A stretch of 64,000 nt of DNA from Minwuia sp. (GTDB taxonomy: Bacteria > Pseudomonadota > Alphaproteobacteria > Minwuiales > Minwuiaceae), in the NCBI GenBank assembly GCA_029210175.1, contig JARGPL010000030.1:1-64000 (forward strand), read 5' to 3'. The notes below the pieces were generated by a model. It made no database searches, had not been told where the DNA came from, and saw only the letters and a program-made list of their open reading frames with translations. The translations under genes and the position numbers were made by a program. Below are positions 3,282 to 46,199 of this stretch, piece after piece (within the stretch, counting starts at the first letter, position 1; each line of letters begins with the position of its first letter).

Positions 3282-6050
3282 TCAGGCGTCCGCCTGCTCC
3301 GCTGCATCGCCGCCTTCTTCGTGATCGTCGTCCTCGCCTTCGTTCTCGGCTTCGGACAGGCGCGTCACCGAGACCACGCCTTCGTTCTTGCCTACATCGA
3401 ACAGCCGCACACCCTGCGTATTGCGCCCGGCGAGACGGACCTCGTCAACCCGAATACGGATCAGCTTGCCACCATTGGTCATCAGCATCATGTGGTCAGT
3501 TTCTTCCACCGGCCCGGACGCCACGACCTTACCATTGCGTTCACTGGTGACGATATTGACGATGCCCTGGCCGCCACGGCCCGTGACACGGTATTCATAC
3601 GCAGATGTGCGCTTGCCAAATCCGTTCTCGGTGATGGAAATCAGCAACTGCTCCGCGGCACCCAGTTCGGCAATCCGCTCCGACGTCAGGTTGACATCGT
3701 CATCGGAGCCGTTCTCGTCATCCGACACCTCTGGCGCCACCGTTTCGACGTCGGCCTGATCACCGCGGCGGATCATGCTCTGATGGCGCAGGTAGGCGCG
3801 CAGCTCGGCGGGTGAACTATCCACATGGCGCAGCACGCTCATGGAGATCACGGCCTCCCCCTTGCCCAGGCGAATGCCGCGCACACCGGTCGAATCGCGG
3901 CCCTTGAAGACCCGCACATCACTGGCTCGGAAGCGGATGCACTTGCCCCCGCCCACGGCCAGCAGAATGTCGTCCTCCTCCACGCACAGGCGCACATTGA
4001 CCAGGGCATCGCCCTCATCCAGCTTCATGGCAATCTTGCCGTTGGACTTCACATTGGAGAAATCGGACAGCAGATTGCGACGCACGTTGCCACTGCGGGT
4101 CGCGAACATGACCTGATGGTTCTGCCAGTCCGCCTCATCCTCCGGCAGCGGCAGCATGGTCTGAATGACCTCCCCCGGCTCCAGCGGCAGCAGATTCTGC
4201 ATCGGGCGACCGCGCCCGTTCGGCTGCGCCAGCGGAATGCGATAGGTCTTCATCTTGTAGACCCGCCCGGCGGAGGAGAAGAACAGCACCGGCATGTGGG
4301 TATTGACCACATGCACCTTGGTGACGAAATCCTCGTCGCGGGTGGCCATGCCGGACCGGCCCTTGCCGCCACGGCGCTGCACGCGATAGGTCGAGAGCGG
4401 CACGCGCTTGATGTAGCCCTTGTGACTGACGGTCACGACCATGTCCTCACGCTGGATCAGGTCTTCCTCATCATGTTCGAATTCGAATTCCAGAATCTCG
4501 GTCCGGCGCGGCGTGGCGAAACGTTCACGCACATCCGCCAGCTCCTCACGCAGGATATCCATCAGGCGGGCCCGGCTGGACAGGACATCCAGGTAATCGG
4601 CAATCTTCTCGCCCAGCCCCTTCAGCTCGTCCCCGATCTCGTCATTGCCAAGGGCGGTCAGGCGGTTCAGGCGCAGGTCCAGAATGGCGCGGGCCTGCGT
4701 ATCCGACAGGCGATAGCGTCCGTCGACCACCTTGTGGGTCGGATCATCGATCAGCGCCACCAGGCCACGGACATCTTCCGCCGGCCAGTCACGGTCCATC
4801 AGTTCGGTGCGCGCCGCGGCCGGATCGGGCGCGGCACGGATGATGCGGATCATCTCGTCGATATTGGCAACGGCAATCGCCAGCCCGACCAGCACATGAG
4901 CGCGATCGCGCGCCTTGCCCAGCAGATGCCGGGTACGACGGGCAATCACCACCTCGCGGAAGCGGACAAAGGCCTCGATCAGGTCGCGCAGGTTCATCAC
5001 CTCAGGGCGACCGGCCAGCAGGGCCAGACTGTTCACCGGGAAGCTCGTCTGCAGCGGCGTGAAGCGATGGAGCTGGTTCAGCACCACCTCCGGAATCGCA
5101 TCGCGGCGCAGTTCGATCACCACGCGGACACCATCACGATCTGATTCATCGCGCAGTTCGGAAATGCCTTCGACCCGCTTGGCCTTCACGGCTTCGGAGA
5201 TCTTCTGAATCATCGCCGCCTTGTTCACCTGGTAGGGAATCTCGGTGACGATGATGGCTTCGCGGTCCTTGCGGATCTCCTCGACCTGGCTGCGGCCCCG
5301 CATGATGACCGAACCACGGCCTTCGGTCAGCGCGGCACGGCTGCCTGCCCGCCCGAGGATCAGCCCGCCGGTGGGGAAATCAGGTGCCTGGACGAATTCC
5401 ATCAGCTCTGCGGCTGTCAGCGCCGGATTTTCCGCGAATGCCAGGCAGGCATCGATCACTTCGCCCAGATTGTGCGGCGGAATGTTGGTGGCCATGCCGA
5501 CGGCAATGCCGCCCGCGCCGTTGACCAGCAGGTTCGGAATGCGCGACGGCAGGACGATGGGTTCCTTCGTCGTGCCGTCATAGTTCTCCTGATAATCGAC
5601 CGTATCCAGATCGATATCCTGCAGCATCGCCTCACCCGCCTTGTCGAGACGGATCTCGGTATAGCGCATGGCGGCGGGGGGATCATTGTCCATGGAACCG
5701 AAGTTGCCCTGACCATCCAGCAAGGGCAGACGCATGGAGAAGTCCTGCGCCATCCGGACCATCGCGTCATAGATCGCCTGATCACCATGCGGGTGATACC
5801 GACCCATGACCTCACCCACGACACGGGCCGACTTGCGGTACGCCTTGTCGGAGGTAAACCCGTTCTCGTTCATCGAATGCAGGATGCGCCGGTGCACCGG
5901 CTTCAGGCCGTCGCGTGCGTCAGGCAGCGCGCGGGAGACGATGACGCTCATCGCATAGTCGAGGTAGGAGCGACGCATCTCCTCTTCGATCGTGATTCCG
6001 GAAATGTCCGACGGAAAGTCCGGCGGCGGAGTGCCCTGTTCGGTTGCCAA
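3282..6050 (-). CDS. gyrA: DNA gyrase subunit A
   Basis: Breakage-reunion subunit of gyrase, which introduces negative supercoils with GyrB and ATP. The 922-residue chain has the winged-helix core, the catalytic tyrosine in [10 protein letters not shown] (Tyr130), the DNA-wrapping GyrA box QRRGGKG, and the repeated beta-pinwheel blades of the C-terminal domain. The tail after about residue 895 is strongly acidic ([12 protein letters not shown]). The quinolone-pocket segment reads [10 protein letters not shown], so the position equivalent to E. coli Ser83 is Gln91 and the Asp87 equivalent is Asp95. An acidic insertion ([11 protein letters not shown]) sits between C-terminal blades. gyrB is not in the window. 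Confidence 0.98.
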
Positions 6051-6260
6051 GAATTAGGTCCTCAGGATTGCCCGCTGTCGGTCATGGCCGCCTACGGAAG
6101 CGGCACATCGACCAGGCCCGGATCAAGGAGCCGTACGGTGCAGTGAATCTCGTGCAGTTACAGAGATTTATTACCCCGCGAAGACACAAGGGGCAAGCCG
6201 CAGAGGGCCTGCAAACCGCAATATCTCGCGTTTCGTGGTGATAATATGATCAGGATGTGG

Positions 6261-6336
6261 TGGTGGGCGGTGACAGGTTCGAACTGCCGACCCTCTCGGT
6301 GTAAACGAGATGCTCTACCAGCTGAGCTAACCGCCC
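6261..6336 (-). tRNA. tRNA-Val(TAC)
   Basis: A 76-base minus-strand cloverleaf begins GGGCGGTTAGCTC and ends ACCGCCC-A-CCA with CCA encoded. The acceptor stem is fully paired, the anticodon stem is TCTCG/CGAGA and the loop TTTACAC gives anticodon TAC, valine. It lies between gyrA and hup; bases 6051-6260 hold no other recognisable gene. Confidence 0.97.
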
Positions 6337-6440
6337 GGCACCAGCAACGGGCGCCGATCATCGAATCGGCAATCCGGCCAATCCTTGACGCCATCCAGGC
6401 AAGGTATCATCCGGCAGCAAATCAGGGCCGGAACGACAAC

Positions 6441-6475
6441 GCCGGTCGTATCCACCTGATGGGGATACGACCGGC
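6441..6475 (-). terminator. hairpin downstream of hup
   Basis: A perfect 13-bp inverted repeat (6441-6453 with 6463-6475, nine-base loop) lies 27 bases past the hup stop. The run after it on the minus strand (GTTGTCGTT) is only mildly T-rich, so termination may be incomplete and read-through into tRNA-Val is possible. Confidence 0.6.
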
Positions 6476-6502
6476 GTGTCTTGGTCATCCGTCAGGACAG
6501 GG

Positions 6503-6775
6503 TCAGTTGACCGCATCCTTCAGCGCCTTGCCAGCCTTGAACTTCGGCTGGTTCGAAGCCGGAATATCAATCTCGGCACCGGTCTGCGGGTTGCGCCCCT
6601 TAGAGGCGGCACGCTTGGCAACCAGGAAAGTACCAAAGCCGACGAGGCGAACTTCTTCGCCCTTGGCCATTGAACTCTCGATGGCGGCAAGAGTTGCATC
6701 CACCGCGCTGCCTGCATCACGTTTGGAGAGATCTGCCGCTTCCGCGACCGCTGCTACCAGCTCGTTCTTATTCAC
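6503..6775 (-). CDS. hupB: HU family DNA-binding protein
   Basis: A 90-residue nucleoid protein that bends DNA non-specifically as a dimer. It is full length and typical: [18 protein letters not shown] start, the GFGTF turn, and the DNA-binding arm [14 protein letters not shown] with the intercalating proline. It lies directly downstream of lon, the position HU takes in many proteobacteria, but a strong hairpin separates the two, so it probably has its own promoter in the 203 bases between them. Alternative assignment to IHF is unlikely because both IHF subunits have other signature residues and are longer. Confidence 0.95.
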
Positions 6776-6854
6776 AAGGCGTCCCCTTCTCTATTGCCGG
6801 TCATATCGTAAATCCGCGGCAAGAATAGGGGGCGGCCTATGGCCCGTCAAAGGG

Positions 6855-6888
6855 AAAGGGGGAGAAATCCCAAGGATTCTCCCCCTTT
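6855..6888 (-). terminator. Rho-independent terminator of lon
   Basis: Between lon and hup, AAAGGGGGAGAA pairs with TTCTCCCCCTTT and continues with a TCC/GGA pair after a one-base bulge. On the minus strand the stem is followed by CCCTTT. It is 90 bases past the lon stop, with only spacer between. Confidence 0.7.
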
Positions 6889-6978
6889 TTGAATCATGCA
6901 CTTAGCGTGACATTTCCGCGACGGAATGCATCACCCTCTGCACATCCGATACGCAACCCGACCGATCCGGGGTACGAA

Positions 6979-9390
6979 TCAGTGGGTAACCACATCCTCA
7001 CCGACCGGCTCACCACGACGTGCGGCAAGCTGTTCGGCCTCATATGCAGCCTCATCCCACTCTACGGCGGTCAATGGCTGGGTCAGCGCCCGCGGCAGGA
7101 CATCGTCGATGGTCGCGACCGGCACGATTTCCATGTCCTTCTTCACATTGGCGGGAATGTCGTCGAGATCCTTCTCGTTGTCCTTCGGGATCAGCACCGT
7201 CTTGATGCCCGCGCGATGGGCAGCCAACAGCTTCTCCTTCAGGCCACCGATCGGCAGCACACGACCACGCAGCGTGACTTCGCCGGTCATGGCGATATCG
7301 CGACGCACAGGCACATTGGTCAACACCGAGACGATGGACGTCACCATCGCGATACCGGCGGACGGCCCATCCTTCGGGGTTGCGCCTTCTGGTACGTGAA
7401 TGTGGATGTCGCGCTTGTCGAACGTCGGCGGAACGACGCCAAAGCCCAGGGCACGGGACCGCACCAGCGACCGCGCCGCCTGAATGGATTCCTGCATCAC
7501 GTCACCAAGCTTGCCGGTGATCAGCATGCGCCCCTTGCCGGGAAGCATCACCGCCTCGATCGACAGCAGTTCGCCGCCGACCTCGGTCCAGGCCAGTCCG
7601 GTCGTGACGCCGACCAGATCCGTCTCCTCGATCTCGCCGAAGCGGAACCGGCGCGTGCCGGCGTACTTGTCGAGATTGCGGCTGGTGATCTTGATCGTCT
7701 TGGATTCGCCGGTGACGATCGCCTTGACGGACTTCCGTGCCAGCTTCGCCATCTCGCGTTCCAGATTCCGGACACCGGCTTCACGCGTGTAGTAGCGAAT
7801 GATGTCGCGCACCGCATTGTCGGTGATGTCCCATTCGCCCTTGCGCAGGCCATGGTCCTTCACCTGCTTCGGGATCAGATGGCGCTTGGCGATCTCCAGC
7901 TTCTCATCCTCGGTGTAACCCGACAGACGAATGACCTCCATGCGATCCAGCAGCGGCTGCGGCATGCGCAGCGTGTTGGCCGTGCAGATGAACATCACGT
8001 CGGAAAGGTCGTAATCGACCTCCAGATAATGATCGGCGAATGTGTGGTTCTGCTCCGGGTCCAGGACCTCAAGCAGTGCCGAAGACGGGTCACCGCGGAA
8101 ATCAGCACCCAGCTTGTCCACTTCATCCAGCAGGAACAGCGGATTGGACGACTTCGCCTTCTTCATCGACTGCACGATCTTGCCGGGCATGGAACCGATG
8201 TAGGTCCGGCGATGACCGCGAACTTCCGCCTCATCACGCACACCACCAAGCGACAGGCGCACGAAATTGCGCCCCGTGGCCCGTGCGATGGACTTGCCGA
8301 GGGAGGTCTTGCCGACGCCCGGAGGGCCGACGAGGCACAGGATCGGGCCCTTCAGTTTCTTGGCGCGTTGCTGCACCGAGAGATATTCAAGGATGCGTTC
8401 CTTGACCTTGTCGAGACCGTAGTGGTCGTTGTTCAGAACGACCTCGGCGGCATTGACGTCGCGCTTCACGCGGGATTTCTTGCCCCACGGAATGGACAGC
8501 AGCCAGTCGAGGTAATTGCGCACAACCGTCGCCTCGGCCGACATCGGACTCATGGCGCGGAGCTTCTTCATCTCCTGATCGGCTTTCTCGCGGGCTTCCT
8601 TGGTCAGCTTGGTCTCTTCGATGCGCTGTTCCAGTTCGGACAGTTCATCACCGCCCTCGTCGCCCTCACCCAGCTCCCGCTGGATCGCCTTCATCTGCTC
8701 GTTCAGGTAATACTCGCGCTGGGTCTTCTCCATCTGGCGCTTGACCCGGCCACGGATCTTCTTCTCGACCTGGATCACGCCCAGCTCGCCTTCCATCAGG
8801 CCGCTGATCTTTTCCAGACGCTCCGACACCGACAGCACTTCCAGCAAGGCCTGCTTGTCCGACAGCTTCAGCTGCAGATGCTGGGCCACCGTGTCGGCCA
8901 GCTTGCTGGAATCCTCGATCTGCTGGACGGTCGCCAGCACCTCGTTCGGGACTTTCCGCGAGACCTTCACATACTGCTCGAACTGATCAAGCACCGTGCG
9001 GCCCAGGGCGGCGACGGCTTCCGCATCGCCTTCGTCTTCTGTCAGCGTCCGGGCGGTTGCCTCGAAATATTCCGGGTTCTCGATGAAGTCGGTCAGTTCC
9101 GCACGGCGCCGACCTTCCACCAGCACCTTGACGGTGCCGTCCGGCAGCTTCAGCAACTGCAGGACCGTGGAAATCGCACCATAACGATAGATGTCGGGCG
9201 CTCCGGGATCGTCGACAGCGGCATCCTTCTGCGCCACCAGCAGGATTTCCTTCGATCCCTGCATCACGGCTTCAAGGGCACGGACAGAACGATCACGACC
9301 GACAAACAGCGGCACGATCATGTTCGGGAATACAACAATGTCGCGGAGCGGCAAGACCGGCAGCGTCACGAAATTCTCTGCGTCAGACAC
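6979..9390 (-). CDS. lon: ATP-dependent protease La (Lon)
   Basis: Homo-oligomeric cytosolic AAA+ protease that degrades misfolded and short-lived regulatory proteins. The 803-residue LonA layout is complete: an N-terminal substrate domain (about 10-205), a coiled-coil linker, Walker [14 protein letters not shown], Walker [12 protein letters not shown], and the C-terminal protease domain with catalytic Ser677 in [10 protein letters not shown] and Lys720 in [12 protein letters not shown], the same 43-residue spacing as in E. coli (679/722). It follows clpX in the usual proteostasis cluster. A heat-shock-like promoter is visible just upstream, so it is probably transcribed separately from clpX. 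Confidence 0.98.
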
Positions 9391-13347: not shown

Positions 13348-13432
13348 TGGTGCGGGCGGAGGGACTCGAACCCCCAAGACTTTCGTCACCAGGACCTAAA
13401 CCTGGCGCGTCTACCAGTTCCGCCACGCCCGC
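13348..13432 (-). tRNA. tRNA-Leu(TAG)
   Basis: An 85-base minus-strand tRNA with a long variable arm, starting GCGGGCGTGGCGGAACTGG and ending CCGCCCGC-A-CCA with encoded CCA. The anticodon loop TTTAGGT gives anticodon TAG. The class II variable arm and GTTCGAGTC T-loop support leucine. Confidence 0.97.
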
Positions 13433-28808: not shown

Positions 28809-29489
28809 TCATTCAGGCTCGAAACGGTGGTAGCGGATGATTGGCGCATTGTTCTGGTAACTGAAAAGCGGAATGGCCTCGATCGAGGTTCCCCTGACCC
28901 GACGACCGACCTCTTCAAGGATGAACTCCGTGACGTCGGCAATGGGCATCTTCAGGGCTTCCGGCAATGGCCGCCAGTCCAGGTCCAGCAGCTCGCCGGA
29001 CCCCGCCAGGGGTGCGTCACCGCCACCATCTGCGCCGTCCGCATGCGTGATGAAGAACCTTGCGTGAAACCGGATCGGCATGGGGGGCGGGGTGATCGCC
29101 CGCGCCAGATAGTCGATGCCGGAAAGCCGGGGGACGAATCTATCGCCCTGCATCTCGCCGAAGCGCAGCCCCGTCTCTTCCCAGGTCTCGCGTACCGCAG
29201 CGACAGCCAGGCCATGCGCCGTCTCGCCGCCGAACTGGGCCGCCAGGCGACGCAGGGGGCGTGAATCGAGCGTATCAAGGGTGTCTGCGGTCAGATCCAC
29301 CTTGTCGAGGCGGCCGCCGGGAAAGACGTACATGTGGGGCATGAACCGGTGGCGTCCGGCACGCCGGCCCAGCAGAACCTCCGCCTTGTCACCCTCCCCC
29401 CGCACGATGACGAGGCTGGATGCATCTCGCGGACGAACAGGACGCGGCATTCCCTTGACGGGCTGTGTCTCTTCTTCTGTCTCGCTCAC
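28809..29489 (-). CDS. Nudix hydrolase, long-loop (NUDT19-like) type
   Basis: A 226-residue Nudix protein. The box is split: FPGGRLD at about 53-59, an insertion of roughly thirty residues, then AAVRETWEETGL carrying the REUXEE catalytic glutamates. This long loop is seen in the NUDT19/NUDT7-related CoA-diphosphatase-like group, so acyl-CoA or another nucleoside diphosphate derivative is a plausible substrate. It starts 14 bases after the stop of a clearly related Nudix gene, so the two look like a tandem duplication. It precedes the MFS gene by 24 bases. Confidence 0.85.
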   Translation of the reverse strand: MSETEEETQPVKGMPRPVRPRDASSLVIVRGEGDKAEVLLGRRAGRHRFMPHMYVFPGGRLDKVDLTADTLDTLDSRPLRRLAAQFGGETAHGLAVAAVRETWEETGLRFGEMQGDRFVPRLSGIDYLARAITPPPMPIRFHARFFITHADGADGGGDAPLAGSGELLDLDWRPLPEALKMPIADVTEFILEEVGRRVRGTSIEAIPLFSYQNNAPIIRYHRFEPE

Positions 29490-29503
29490 TTGTCCTGCTC
29501 CGC

Positions 29504-30232
29504 TTACTGAAATGTATCCGTGTGCTGACCGCGCACGTACTGGTACAGCGGCAGCTTGTGTTCTGCCGTCGGCGGCGGGGGATTGGACACGAATTCCTCC
29601 ACGTACTTCAGCATCACGCCCGTGATGCGTGGAATTTCCAGATTCAGCGCCTTCTCGATCGTCACCCAGTGAATATCCAGCAATTCGCCGTCGCCTTCGA
29701 TCACTTCGTTGGCCAGCCGGTTGGCATCGGCCATGAAGAAGCGCGCGTTGAAACGCCGGGGGCGGAATGGCGGGGTAACAGCCCTGGCAACAAAGTCCAG
29801 GGCATCGAAATCCGGTGCGAAGCCAGTTTCGAAGAAGCCCTTCCAGTTGCGAGGCACGCTGCGATCAGGTTCAGGGTCGGGCTTGCCCAGAATGAGGCCG
29901 GTTTCCTCGAACGTTTCGCGAATGGCCGCTGCCGCGAGTGCGCGGGCACGCGCCGGAGACGCAGCCTTGGTCAGGTGCCCGTCGACATGGGGCTTCAGTT
30001 CGGTGGAGCTGCGCACCCGCCAGTCGGTCGGATCGACCCGTCCGCCCGGGAAGACCCAGCGGTTCGGCATGAAGGCATGCTTGCCGTGCCGTTCGCCCAT
30101 GACGATCTCGACAGTCTTCGCGGTTCGCCGCCACAGGACAAGGGTTGCCGCATCGCGTGGCCGCAGCGCCTTCTGCCCCTCTGGCCGCAGGTGCTTGTCT
30201 TTCGGATCATGGGGGTTTTCGACCATCGTCAT
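29504..30232 (-). CDS. Nudix hydrolase, long-loop (NUDT19-like) type, tandem paralogue
   Basis: A 242-residue homologue of the next gene, with the same opening (RPRDAATLVLWRR), MPNRWVFPGGRVDP, an inserted loop, and AAAIRETFEETGL. The C-terminal PFRPRRFNARFFMAD and DGELLDIHWVTIEKAL blocks match the neighbour as well, so both proteins share one full-length domain design. It is the first gene of the six-gene operon; 139 bases without a gene separate it from the upstream DUF983 gene. Loss or gain of a second substrate between the two copies is possible but cannot be judged here. Confidence 0.85.
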   Translation of the reverse strand: MTMVENPHDPKDKHLRPEGQKALRPRDAATLVLWRRTAKTVEIVMGERHGKHAFMPNRWVFPGGRVDPTDWRVRSSTELKPHVDGHLTKAASPARARALAAAAIRETFEETGLILGKPDPEPDRSVPRNWKGFFETGFAPDFDALDFVARAVTPPFRPRRFNARFFMADANRLANEVIEGDGELLDIHWVTIEKALNLEIPRITGVMLKYVEEFVSNPPPPTAEHKLPLYQYVRGQHTDTFQ

Positions 30233-43040: not shown

Positions 43041-43877
43041 ATGTCCAATGGCAACGTACTGGCGGGTGCCGCCGATCTGAATGGCAAGTATGCCGATGTC
43101 GTGCCCCGCGCGGCGAGCAGTATCCTGCTGATCCGCGACGGTGATGACGGGCTGGAAGTCTTCATGGTGAAACGCCATCACAAGATCGACTTCGCATCCG
43201 GCGCGATGGTCTTCCCCGGCGGCAAGGTCGACCCTGAGGACAGTGACGCAGAAGCACGCGCGGCAACTGTCGGTGCCGATGGCCTGGATGACACCCAACT
43301 GGGGTTTCAGGTTTCCGCCATCCGGGAGGCGTTCGAGGAAACCGGTGTCCTGATTGCCACGAAGGCAGACGGAACGGAACTGACCGGCACGGAAGCCACC
43401 GCACTGAAGGATCTCTATGCCGAGAAGCTGGAAGCCAACCAGATCACCATGGGCGCGATGGCCAGGGCCGAGGGCCTGCTGTTCCGCGTCGATCGACTGG
43501 AAGCCTTCGCCCACTGGATCACGCCGCCGGTCATGCCGAAGCGCTTCGACACCCCGTTCTTCATCGCCGAGGCACCGGAGGCCCAGGTGGCAGGTGCCCT
43601 GCACGACGGCAAGGAAGCCGTGGAAAGCGTCTGGACCACCCCGCATGGCGTGCTTGAGCAGGTGGATCGTGGCGAAGTGACCATGGTCTTTGCCACGCGC
43701 CTGAACCTCAACCTGCTGGGCGAATCCAGCACGGTAGAGGAAGCCATGGCGAGTGCCGCGGCCCGGACCCCGGTCATCGTGACGCCGCATGTCTACGTGA
43801 AGGATGGCCGACGCATGATCGACATTCCGGCCGACGCGGGTTTTGGCAAGGCAACCTGGGATACGGGCGCAGGCTGA
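43041..43877 (+). CDS. Nudix hydrolase, long-loop (NUDT19-like) type
   Basis: A 278-residue Nudix protein, third of this type in the window. VPRAASSILLIRDGDD and FASGAMVFPGGKVDPED lead into an insertion of about thirty residues, followed by SAIREAFEETGVLIA with the catalytic REUXEE glutamates, and HWITPPVMPKRFDTPFFIAEAP is shared with the pair at 28.8-30.2 kb. It is likely a CoA- or nucleotide-diphosphate hydrolase. It is alone on the plus strand, 282 bases from the divergent AsmA gene, and it borders the AT-rich islet on its 3' side. Confidence 0.85.
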   Translation: MSNGNVLAGAADLNGKYADVVPRAASSILLIRDGDDGLEVFMVKRHHKIDFASGAMVFPGGKVDPEDSDAEARAATVGADGLDDTQLGFQVSAIREAFEETGVLIATKADGTELTGTEATALKDLYAEKLEANQITMGAMARAEGLLFRVDRLEAFAHWITPPVMPKRFDTPFFIAEAPEAQVAGALHDGKEAVESVWTTPHGVLEQVDRGEVTMVFATRLNLNLLGESSTVEEAMASAAARTPVIVTPHVYVKDGRRMIDIPADAGFGKATWDTGAG

Positions 43878-43885
43878 CTTCCAGT

Positions 43886-44455
43886 CTATCGCCTTAAAAC
43901 CAGGTCAATTTCGATTGTTGCAATACAATCTGGACGATCGGAATTAATAGCGTAAGTTCCAAGATATAGGTCGTGCGCGGAATCCAATCTGATTAAACGA
44001 GAACCGTTTACAGGAATTCTGAGGACCGACGGACTAGACATAATATTATTATCCGAAATTATCCAATCCACCCCAACAAATCGGTACGACTGCTTGATAA
44101 GGGCATTCTTGATGACTTTATTGATTCTTTGCTCAAAATCACTCAACGAGTCTCCATCATTTGATCCAGTCAATTCAGCATCAATACCGTAACCACCTAA
44201 ATGTGTACCACCCATACCCAAGAAAACTTCAGGATTCTTTGTAATTTGAACTGGGTTTTGACTATCACATCCCTCAAATTGCTGAGCAGTTCTTCCCATA
44301 GTTAGGTTTTTTTGCAACAACTCTGGTGGATTAACGTACTTCGAAATAGAAAAAAGCAAAGTATCGTAATACCAAGGACTTCCCCCCAGCAAAATTGCTG
44401 GAACTACCAACCTCCTTAATCGAACCCATATGTTTTCTTTTCCTATCTCATCCAT
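43886..44455 (-). CDS. hypothetical protein of AT-rich islet
   Basis: An unrecognised 189-residue protein. Charged residues at the N-terminus (MDEIGKENIWVRLRRL) precede one likely membrane segment (VVPAILLGGSPWYYDTLLF), and the rest looks like an alpha-beta domain (FEQRINKVIKNALIKQSY, RFVGVDWIISDNN, CIATIEIDLVLRR). No motif places it in a known family. Base composition and codon choice are far more A/T-rich than all neighbours, so it was probably acquired. It follows the Cas2-like gene by 82 bases on the same strand and may be its partner. A CTCC-rich stretch just upstream (GGAGGAG on the minus strand) gives a strong ribosome site, which supports real translation. Confidence 0.6.
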   Translation of the reverse strand: MDEIGKENIWVRLRRLVVPAILLGGSPWYYDTLLFSISKYVNPPELLQKNLTMGRTAQQFEGCDSQNPVQITKNPEVFLGMGGTHLGGYGIDAELTGSNDGDSLSDFEQRINKVIKNALIKQSYRFVGVDWIISDNNIMSSPSVLRIPVNGSRLIRLDSAHDLYLGTYAINSDRPDCIATIEIDLVLRR

Positions 44456-44537
44456 CAGCTCCTCCTAAGATCATCAAAAAAACCTACAAAACTTAAACAT
44501 CACCTCTCAAGAACCAATCAAATAACTTCAAATAACA

Positions 44538-44807
44538 CTACCAATTTCTATTCTCACCCTTAAGCCAAGCACCGCACCCATAATTCAACGCCGCCCAGTT
44601 TTTCCTTAACCGAGCGACAAATAGAATATCATCTTGGTCGAGGAACCCTTTCAAACTATCACGAACTTCAGATACTGAGTCAGTTGTGTCGAGCAACCAA
44701 ACAGATTCTAATTCTTTGCAATGCGTATGCTTGCGAAGCGCCTTGAATAGTCCAGAATAGTTCTGCCCCGGCTTGCGAAGGTCATAAGTCACGAGAACAA
44801 CTGCCAT
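44538..44807 (-). CDS. Cas2/SinR-like protein without CRISPR locus
   Basis: An 89-residue protein with the ferredoxin-like Cas2 fold pattern: VVLVTYDLRKPGQNY (Asp9 at the place of the Cas2 metal-binding aspartate), ALRKHTHCKELESVWLLDTT, then DDILFVARLRKNWAALNYG. This wording is that of the solitary SinR-type Cas2 relatives rather than adaptation Cas2. The ATG at 44807 has GGAGG eleven bases upstream; a TTG at 44825 would add six residues. No cas1, repeats or spacers are seen within the window. The gene lies in A/T-rich DNA unlike its surroundings. Function unknown; solitary relatives are often small nucleases or VapD-like. Confidence 0.75.
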   Translation of the reverse strand: MAVVLVTYDLRKPGQNYSGLFKALRKHTHCKELESVWLLDTTDSVSEVRDSLKGFLDQDDILFVARLRKNWAALNYGCGAWLKGENRNW

Positions 44808-44883
44808 GGCACCGCACACCTCCAAGATCGATTGACACTACAAAAATGCAACCCTGAGTCAATACTCTGCGATCCAAAAACGC

Positions 44884-44917
44884 CAAAAAAAAGAGCCGCT
44901 ACCTTTCGGTGCGGCTC
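44884..44917 (-). terminator. Rho-independent terminator of leuB
   Basis: GAGCCGC pairs with GCGGCTC, with an inner ACC/GGT pair and a short loop, followed on the minus strand by eight T residues. It lies about 170 bases past the leuB stop and marks the right edge of the AT-rich islet. Confidence 0.9.
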
Positions 44918-45006
44918 CTTCTTGAGGCTTTGGTCTGCTGACTGCGATGGGGCTCTTGATCGGCCCTCTGGCGCAGTTTCCTCCCGAGACTCGGGTCAAA
45001 GCTGAA

Positions 45007-45051
45007 CAAACGTTAACCGCATCTTTTCGATGACGCAACGTCAACGTTTGT
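45007..45051 (-). repeat. nested inverted repeat downstream of leuB
   Basis: ACAAACGTT (45007-45015) is repeated inverted as AACGTTTGT (45043-45051), and inside it CATC/GATG forms a second small stem. It lies 36-80 bases past the leuB stop, before the true terminator. It may be a protein-binding site or an RNA 3' structure. Confidence 0.5.
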
Positions 45052-45086
45052 CCGTCTGCACATTAAATCACCTGAATGCCTGGCGA

Positions 45087-46199
45087 TCAGGCAGCCAGCT
45101 TGTCCAGTTCCTTCAACAGGGCATCGGACATGGTCGCGGTGGACACCTGTGCCATGCCTTCCGCCATGATGTCGGGGGTGCGCAGGCCGCGGCTCAGCAC
45201 GTTGTTGACGGCGGTTTCGATCAGGTCTGCATCTTCGGGCAGATCGAAGGTGTAGCGCAGTGACATGGCGTAGGACAGCAAGGTCGCCAGCGGGTTGGCC
45301 TTGCCCTGTCCGGCGATGTCGGGGGCCGAGCCATGCACCGGCTCATAGAGTGACTTGCGGCGGCCCGTCTCGTCCACATCGCCCAGCGAGGCCGACGGCA
45401 GCATGCCCAGCGAACCCGTCAGCATCGCTGCGGTGTCGGACAGCATGTCGCCGAACAGGTTGTCGGTGACGATGACGTCGAACTGCTTCGGCGCGCGCAC
45501 CAGCTGCATGGAACAATTGTCGGCATACATGTGGCTGAGTTCGACGTCGGAGAAGGATTCGGCATGCAGCTTCGTCACTTCCTCACGCCATAGCACACCG
45601 GATTCCATCACGTTGGCCTTCTCGACGGAGCAGACCTTGTTGCCCCGCTTGCGGGCCAGGTCGAAGGCAACGGCGGCAACGCGATGAATTTCCGAGGTGG
45701 TATAGACCTGCGTGTTGATGCCGCGACGCTCTCCGTTCGGCAAGTCCTCGATCCCGCGCGGTTCGCCGAAGTACACGCCACCGGTCAGTTCCCGGATGAT
45801 CATGATATCCAGACCCTCGATGATCTCGCGCTTCAGGGTGGAAGCGTCAACCAGCGGCGCAAAGCAGAGCGCGGGACGCAGGTTGGCATAGAGGCCCAGG
45901 TCCTTGCGCAGGCGCAGCAGGCCCCGCTCCGGCTTCTGCGCGAACGGCAGGTCGTCCCACTTCGGGCCACCAACCGCCCCCAGCAGCACGGCATCGGAAT
46001 TCATTGCCGTGTCGACCACCTTGTCGGTGACGGGAATGCCATGCTTGTCGATGGACGCTCCACCGACCAGGTCTTCGGTCACGTCGAAGCTGACGGCGCG
46101 GCGATGATCCATCCAGTCGATCACCTTGCGCACCACACTCATCACTTCCGGGCCAATCCCGTCGCCGGGCAGCATCAGCAGCTTGCGGTTGGATGCCAT
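45087..46199 (-). CDS. leuB: 3-isopropylmalate dehydrogenase
   Basis: NAD-dependent oxidative decarboxylation of 3-isopropylmalate, the third leucine-specific step. The 370-residue homodimeric enzyme shows [27 protein letters not shown] (substrate-specific loop), [14 protein letters not shown], the metal/substrate site [14 protein letters not shown] and [18 protein letters not shown]. It lies 39 bases downstream of leuD on the same strand. leuC lies 3 kb upstream beyond three plus-strand genes. Terminator and a nested repeat follow. Confidence 0.98.

Follow-up and report, generated by a model that had tools for sequence, protein, structure and literature searches.

Between the Nudix hydrolase gene (43041..43877, + strand) and leuB (45087..46199, − strand), the window, by which we mean the whole 64,000-nt stretch of DNA analysed here, contains an AT-rich islet of 1009 nt with approximately 41% GC (43878..44886, no strand assigned). 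It extends from the Nudix stop codon (43877) to the leuB terminator (~44887), a hairpin read by eye at 44887..44925 on the − strand, which forms the right edge of the islet and is mostly retained in relatives. The two islet genes share the − strand, and are thus codirectional with leuB and convergent with the Nudix gene. The first encodes a SinR-like (phrog_1090) protein of 89 aa with a predicted Cas2/VapD fold (44538..44807, ATG at 44807, stop to 44538), and its Shine-Dalgarno sequence GGAGGT (44818..44823, − strand) is located 10 nt ahead of the ATG. The second, 82 nt downstream, is a 189-aa ORFan (43886..44455, − strand, ATG at 44455, stop to 43886) with the Shine-Dalgarno sequence AGGAGGAG (44459..44466, − strand) 3 nt ahead of its ATG. 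The lowest 500-nt GC of the window falls within the islet (0.376 at 44041, compared with a window mean of 0.624 and a lowest value outside the islet of 0.546). The 60-base line at 43561 contains 43 G+C, while those at 43921, 44281 and 44461 contain 27, 25 and 21, respectively. An earlier sequence-only reading of this DNA had reported these four counts, which proved exact on recount. It had also described frames of 89 and 189 residues lying 82 bases apart between the Nudix gene and the leuB terminator, the longer one with a strong ribosome site, and the coordinates and spacings given above agree on every point. Its statement that the islet is compositionally foreign is borne out by the GC minimum as well as by the empty site in relatives.

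The adjacency of the Nudix gene and leuB is kept in four same-genus genomes (G001, G002, G003 and G005), where 42, 42, 64 and 37 nt, respectively, separate the Nudix stop from the leuB terminator, against 1009 nt in the window. The two genes lie apart in the remaining two same-genus genomes (G004 and G006), which are uninformative on the site. Furthermore, the SinR family profile found no match in the six same-genus and two same-family genomes, so that the window's own genome is the only positive one. Because four same-genus genomes have a short spacer and SinR is absent from these eight genus and family genomes, the islet is an acquisition: approximately 0.95 kb was horizontally acquired in one species between two convergent housekeeping genes. 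The alternative, loss in every relative, is less simple. Insertion with target duplication was considered and rejected, as an exact direct repeat of 5-12 nt is lacking between the islet edges, neither of the two frames encodes a transposase, and the nearest tRNA within the window (13348-13432) is remote from the islet. A promoter search of the islet returned 2 sites with 1.9 expected, none of them convincing, and a structured-RNA search of 43700-45200 gave two matches, each far under the gathering score. An inverted repeat, TTGAC-N21-GTCAA, is situated at window positions 44832-44862 between the leuB terminator and the SinR start and is a possible operator. Two weak matches to paralogues of the Nudix gene lie inside the window at 29160-30163.

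The sequence-only reading had called the 89-residue protein Cas2/SinR-like and had proposed a profile search and structure prediction. The profile search succeeded for phrog_1090, whose function is unannotated (E 1.6e-25, residues 1-82), but not for Pfam Cas2 (PF09827), where the score of 18.6 bits lies under the gathering cut-off of 23.8 bits. The PADLOC Cas2 models match weakly (best 4.8e-5), as do the sequences of solved Cas2 proteins (best E 0.013). A frame of 89 codons is by itself not rare by chance, as it appeared in 531 of 2000 islets simulated with a first-order Markov model; the SinR frame, however, does have homologues. Structure prediction gave a usable result for this protein alone. 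Its AlphaFold2 model, calculated from a 32-row alignment, reaches a mean pLDDT of 93, and its strands and helices follow the order of a ferredoxin-like fold, whereas the prediction for the 189-aa ORF reached a pLDDT of 33.5 and is unusable. The top Foldseek rows for the SinR-like model are Cas2 proteins (4es1, E 1.4e-3, TM 0.62; nothing below 1e-3). Among the VIA matches, BPSL1038 (Z 9.3, 83 aligned residues, rmsd 2.8) is followed by 1zpw (Z 9.2), listed as hypothetical protein TT1823, which we take to be a Cas2, and by Cas2 8d3l (Z 9.0, 84 aligned residues, rmsd 2.7). Cas2 chains occupy much of the VIA list, and its best Z values are just slightly over the level reached by common folds, according to the tool's own note. 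As judged from this model, the SinR-like protein has a Cas2/VapD-type fold, in agreement with the assignment made in the sequence-only reading.

Two candidate active-site residues stand out in the model, Asp9 at the end of β1 and Ser35 at the β2-β3 turn. Across 32 aligned SinR rows, position 9 holds D in 29 rows and E in the other 3, position 35 is S in 31 of 32, and D60 is invariant (32/32). The C-terminus reads R-W/F or R-x-W/F in 16 of the 32 proteins, including the window copy. In the available part of the BPSL1038 report, the active site is proposed to be D11(X20)SST (PMC10491678), and the accessible text on VapD describes an Asp/Ser pair, D11/S46 (PMC11980593). S35 may be equivalent to the VapD serine, given its place at the β2-β3 turn of the model rather than an alignment with VapD. 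The predicted fold together with Asp9/Ser35 suggests a dimeric nuclease of the Cas2/VapD/BPSL1038 kind, in which both the nuclease activity and the dimer are features expected from the model.

Among known proteins, the islet protein is close to the phage proteins of phrog_1090, or 'SinR'. The SinR of Klebsiella phage ST437-OXA245phi4.1 is a full-length homologue with 54% identity, and has in common with the window copy the C-terminal R-x-W tail and its nature as a mobile-element gene; the window copy differs in being located in a bacterial intergenic islet, where an ORFan follows it. BPSL1038 is the top VIA match and is likewise an orphan without CRISPR, with an Asp near the first strand and a Ser at the β2-β3 turn, places that appear similar to those of Asp9 and Ser35. 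However, identity is 5% over the aligned residues, and BPSL1038, according to the part of its description available, carries a long C-terminal helix and is a conserved protein throughout Burkholderia. VapD shares the conserved Asp and Ser and occurs stand-alone or paired, but no VapX, VapY or VapW was recognised in the islet, and VapD is absent among the 50 VIA rows listed, which does not speak against a relationship. The likeness to CRISPR Cas2 lies in the ferredoxin-like fold of the model and the catalytic-type Asp. It differs in that the islet protein stays below the Pfam cut-off and has no cas1 beside it, while the genome possesses a separate cas1 together with a true cas2. Contig C3 carries the genome's only Cas1 match, and the only Cas2 match above cut-off adjoins it on the same strand (G000, 138778-139917). 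The absence of cas1 and of a CRISPR array, claimed earlier from the sequence, holds for the islet, whereas the genome as a whole does carry cas1. A repeat search of the flanks, which had also been suggested, found no CRISPR-type repeats within 43860-44960. Since the genome's Cas1 and true Cas2 sit on another contig and the islet lacks CRISPR-type repeats, the idea of a CRISPR remnant was rejected.

The 189-aa ORFan is probably a real gene. Of 2000 islets simulated with a first-order Markov model, 3 contained a frame of 189 codons, and the GC of the ORFan at the three codon positions is 0.47/0.38/0.35, compared with 0.65/0.42/0.83 for leuB. Searches of 143 relatives, of 385 genomes of the class and of 398 of the phylum, which are overlapping sets, matched only the own genome; plasmids and phages gave no homologue, and neither did viral or genome contigs, a search that reaches close relatives only. 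Among 176 loci searched with phmmer in six frames, there was no match beyond the window's own four (next best E 0.64). The protein belongs to no PADLOC, NCBIfam or PHROG family, has no Pfam match above cut-off and gave no phmmer match in the PDB at E ≤ 1. A TruB-C_2 match (E 0.088) is below cut-off and was taken as chance. The protein is also not a SinR homologue. The sequence-only reading had assigned it one membrane segment; this appears weak, as the best 19-residue Kyte-Doolittle mean is 1.12, under the usual 1.6. That reading had further raised the prospect of a conserved, membrane-linked two-gene system, and had itself named what would refute it: that homologues of the two genes never co-occur, or that the 189-residue frame lacks both homologues and conserved codons. 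As far as these searches reach, the frame has no homologue and hence no recurring pair, and the protein has no clear membrane helix. On the evidence of these sequence searches, the pair of SinR and the 189-aa gene is not conserved.

The SinR family itself is much more widespread. Its distribution is patchy in the class, with 21 positive genomes out of 385 (profile A3, E ≤ 1e-3), and 16 of 398 phylum genomes are positive (profile A6, E ≤ 1e-6), the own genome being counted in both cases. Searching with the SinR-like protein by tblastn at E ≤ 0.1 retrieved 79 phage and 107 plasmid records, and pattern scans for SinR retrieved 30 viral contigs and 19 genome contigs. In the SinR tree, which is built on few columns and contains many weak forks, the window copy falls inside a 10-row clade (support 97/93) of P2-like phage, viral-contig and bacterial copies. 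Besides the P2-like phage copies, this clade includes a viral contig that is also present in a Brevundimonas genome (L006/L045), a second viral contig (L023), and copies from Paracoccus, Pelagerythrobacter, Sphingomonas, Alloalcanivorax and another member of the class.

In 13 P2-like loci, several of them nearly identical, SinR adjoins the portal and terminase genes, which are annotated in some loci and recognised by similarity in the rest. The gpA-gpQ region of P2-like phages is described as an anti-phage hotspot, occupied in P2 by old and tin, in the part of the work by Rousset and colleagues that is available (PMC9122126). Besides old and tin, the gpA-gpQ hotspot contains further exclusion genes, and the 13 P2-like relatives of SinR are situated at its portal/terminase end. 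SinR has a lower GC than its own locus in 33 of the 36 loci whose GC is 50% or more, and in 10 of the remaining 13, which is consistent with mobility. A 64-aa cysteine-rich, zinc-finger-like ORF (phrog_19700) ends 3-4 nt upstream of SinR in the 13 P2-like loci (L007, L013-L022, L042 and L043), and the same ORF is present at L089-L101. It was tried as an obligate SinR partner in P2-like phages and rejected, as SinR lies within 1.5 kb in 10 of 13 viral loci that have this ORF; two of the remaining three retain a C-terminal stub of SinR, as read by eye, and one is without SinR.

To compare the gene neighbours of SinR elsewhere, 90 loci, gathered by similarity rather than sampled, were reduced by single linkage at 60% identity to 49 clusters with one representative each. 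A close neighbour was defined, on simple longest-frame gene calls, as a gene on the same strand of at least 150 aa within 110 nt. Downstream of SinR, the next gene is on the opposite strand in 25 of the 49 clusters; in 11 the same strand offers nothing but a short or distant gene, one reaches the contig end and 12 have a close neighbour. A close neighbour is found upstream in 5 of 49, and on neither side in 33 of 49. Within the window clade, none of the nine other rows has a close downstream neighbour, which makes the window an exception in its own clade. The solitude of SinR is nevertheless incomplete there, since three of these nine have a close upstream gene, namely an AAA-type gene (L046), a DUF4236 gene (L048) and an integrase (L047), and three more rows have a small ORF upstream (L006, L013 and L018).

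In other branches of the family, SinR is clearly part of operons. A TIR protein (PDC-S66, 2.2e-34) follows SinR by 24 nt at L053; an HNH-SAVED effector follows by 1 nt at L056, succeeded by the CD-NTase of a CBASS set (6001-9096); a half-length HsdS follows by 4 nt at L162, succeeded by HsdM; and a PIN_8 protein lies downstream at L164 after a gap of 21 nt. Also close downstream are a DUF3800 protein (L126) and a protein with a PDC-M36A match (L131). The remaining six of the 12 are not known as defence genes: they encode a transport protein (L011), a glycosyltransferase (L051), a protein with an ArsC match (L135), a 232-aa protein with a HEPN-like motif (L057) and, at L170 and L171, two proteins with no PADLOC match. 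The HEPN calls at L129 and L057 refer to an R-x4/5-H motif seen by eye with no Pfam match, and L058 was classed with L057 because the two are similar. Plasmid loci outside the 49 representatives repeat the same themes. On plasmid pDE of Cereibacter sphaeroides 2.4.1 (L144, 3489-6763), SinR is followed 104 nt downstream by a cyclase, then by a 160-aa gene and SAVED; an Acinetobacter plasmid (L140) has the order SinR-HsdS-HsdM-HsdS, with 45 nt between SinR and the half-length HsdS; and a Rahnella plasmid (L010) has an Abi_2-like gene (below the Pfam cut-off; PD-T4-5, 2.4e-15), SinR and PIN_8. At larger distances, DUF4145 lies approximately 0.24 kb upstream of SinR in L006/L045, and putAbiC approximately 0.34 kb upstream in L041. 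DUF4145 is a HEPN family, as stated in the available portion of PMC3710099.

The two CBASS sets preceded by SinR (L144 and L056) come from different phyla. On the tree, the two CBASS-linked SinRs need two changes, of which the well-supported branches force just one, and the two HEPN-like copies also need two. Among the 12 downstream genes, four have a PADLOC match at E ≤ 1e-10 (L053, L056, L131 and L162). As a control, 60 ORFs taken from these loci gave matches to 40 PADLOC families; each of the 25 listed was matched by a single ORF, and two of these listed families come from one ORF, so that the 40 families may stand for fewer ORFs. The sequence-only reading had suggested looking for enrichment in defence islands: defence genes do adjoin SinR in some loci, but enrichment is not established. 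Its guess at a defence role survives in a changed form, as the family is partly defence-linked, with partners other than the 189-aa gene. Neither the TIR protein nor CBASS appears to be an obligate partner. Of three close plasmid homologues of the TIR protein, both of those inspected are without SinR (annotation within 3 kb; SinR profile), and L145, the sister of the Cereibacter SinR (100/98), has no annotated CBASS gene in 7.2 kb; L145 and L144 have flanking ImmA/IrrE-type genes in common. Since phages and plasmids collect defence genes, the neighbourhood of SinR and defence genes may also be a shared habitat. The family-level tie of SinR to defence operons is therefore suggestive, and we regard it as the more interesting lead.

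Combined, these results favour an explanation on which our confidence is evenly balanced: the islet would carry a prophage-type, self-sufficient Cas2-fold nuclease that excludes phages or arrests growth. Without a dedicated partner, the SinR-like protein would be triggered by infection to cleave RNA or DNA, and this cleavage would block the invading phage at a cost borne by the infected cell. The 189-aa gene would be a passenger or a recent, lineage-specific accessory, co-transcribed or expressed from its own strong ribosome site, and no fixed partner. Several points speak against this explanation. A lone nuclease must stay silent, and no means for this is visible; the strong ribosome site of the 189-aa gene and the 82-nt spacing would fit a real partner too. 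The Foldseek E-values and the sequence matches to solved Cas2 proteins are weak, the islet has no convincing promoter, and SinR is neither wholly solitary in the window clade nor outside operons in other branches.

If the downstream gene is instead given a role, the operons of other branches offer a broader, tentative reading that we consider rather doubtful. SinR-like Cas2-fold proteins would serve as a shared, interchangeable front-end of immunity, acting alone in prophages or standing first in operons, where they would sense or license unrelated effectors (CBASS, type I restriction, TIR, PIN_8, DUF3800 and perhaps HEPN). In the islet, this front-end would then be joined to a brand-new effector, namely the 189-aa ORFan.

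Also unlikely is a type V toxin-antitoxin or defence module resembling GhoS/GhoT, in which the SinR-like protein, as an RNase antitoxin, would cut the mRNA of the 189-aa effector until infection or stress relieves this control and the effector acts at the membrane. GhoS/GhoT is a type V system with a Cas2-like antitoxin, according to the accessible part of PMC7438911. The islet resembles it in placing a Cas2-fold gene first and a second gene with a strong ribosome site 82 nt after it on the same strand, and SinR elsewhere precedes varied effectors at short distance (TIR, 24 nt; HNH-SAVED, 1 nt; HsdS, 4 nt; PIN_8, 21 nt). GhoS, whose fold is related, is also among the structural matches of the SinR-like model (2llz, VIA Z 6.6; Foldseek E 0.058), but it scores under many Cas2s and BPSL1038. 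GhoT is far smaller than 189 aa. The downstream protein is thus far above GhoT size, and it has no clear membrane helix, so that no GhoT-like membrane peptide is present in the islet. The pair is not conserved, and in 33 of 49 SinR clusters there would be no close gene to silence.

It is about equally unlikely, in our estimate, that the islet is decaying cargo, co-transferred at random and without present function. A single occurrence, in one member of the genus and at a tolerant convergent site, would suit such cargo, as would an ORFan without family and the lack of a convincing promoter. Against this, neither frame is disrupted, each has a good ribosome site, and the conserved residues of the SinR family are in place.

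A type II toxin-antitoxin system of the VapD kind, in which SinR would be the toxin and the 189-aa protein would bind and neutralise it, appears quite improbable. A conserved Asp and Ser are likewise present in VapD and BPSL1038, and both stand-alone and paired VapDs exist in the sources as far as available. However, the VapD antitoxins named in these sources are SH3-fold proteins or VapD homologues, while the 189-aa protein, whose structure prediction is unusable, is no homologue of SinR, and lone SinRs elsewhere have no adjacent antitoxin.

Orphan Cas2 homologues near mobile-element genes, with a proposed toxin role, were described in 2012 (PMC3506569), a paper of 2013 mentions integrons with Cas2-like toxins (PMC3710099), and Cas2 is regarded as a relative of toxin-type nucleases (PMC12737573, PMC7438911), in each case according to the portion of the text available. 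For defence operons led by SinR, no paper was found among those listed in a search by title and start of abstract, covering literature mainly outside subscription journals and bioRxiv. If one Cas2-fold family both moves with phages and heads several unrelated defence operons, it would open a direct route to the question of what the relatives of Cas2 do without CRISPR. The contribution of the window is one clean acquisition, for which relatives supply the empty-site control, together with a possible new effector.

A minor observation concerns the Tistrella-type SinR-like genes L051 and L003, in which D9 is replaced by E. At L051, the GC of SinR equals that of the host and the gene lies 30 nt ahead of the glycosyltransferase frame, so that this copy looks resident.
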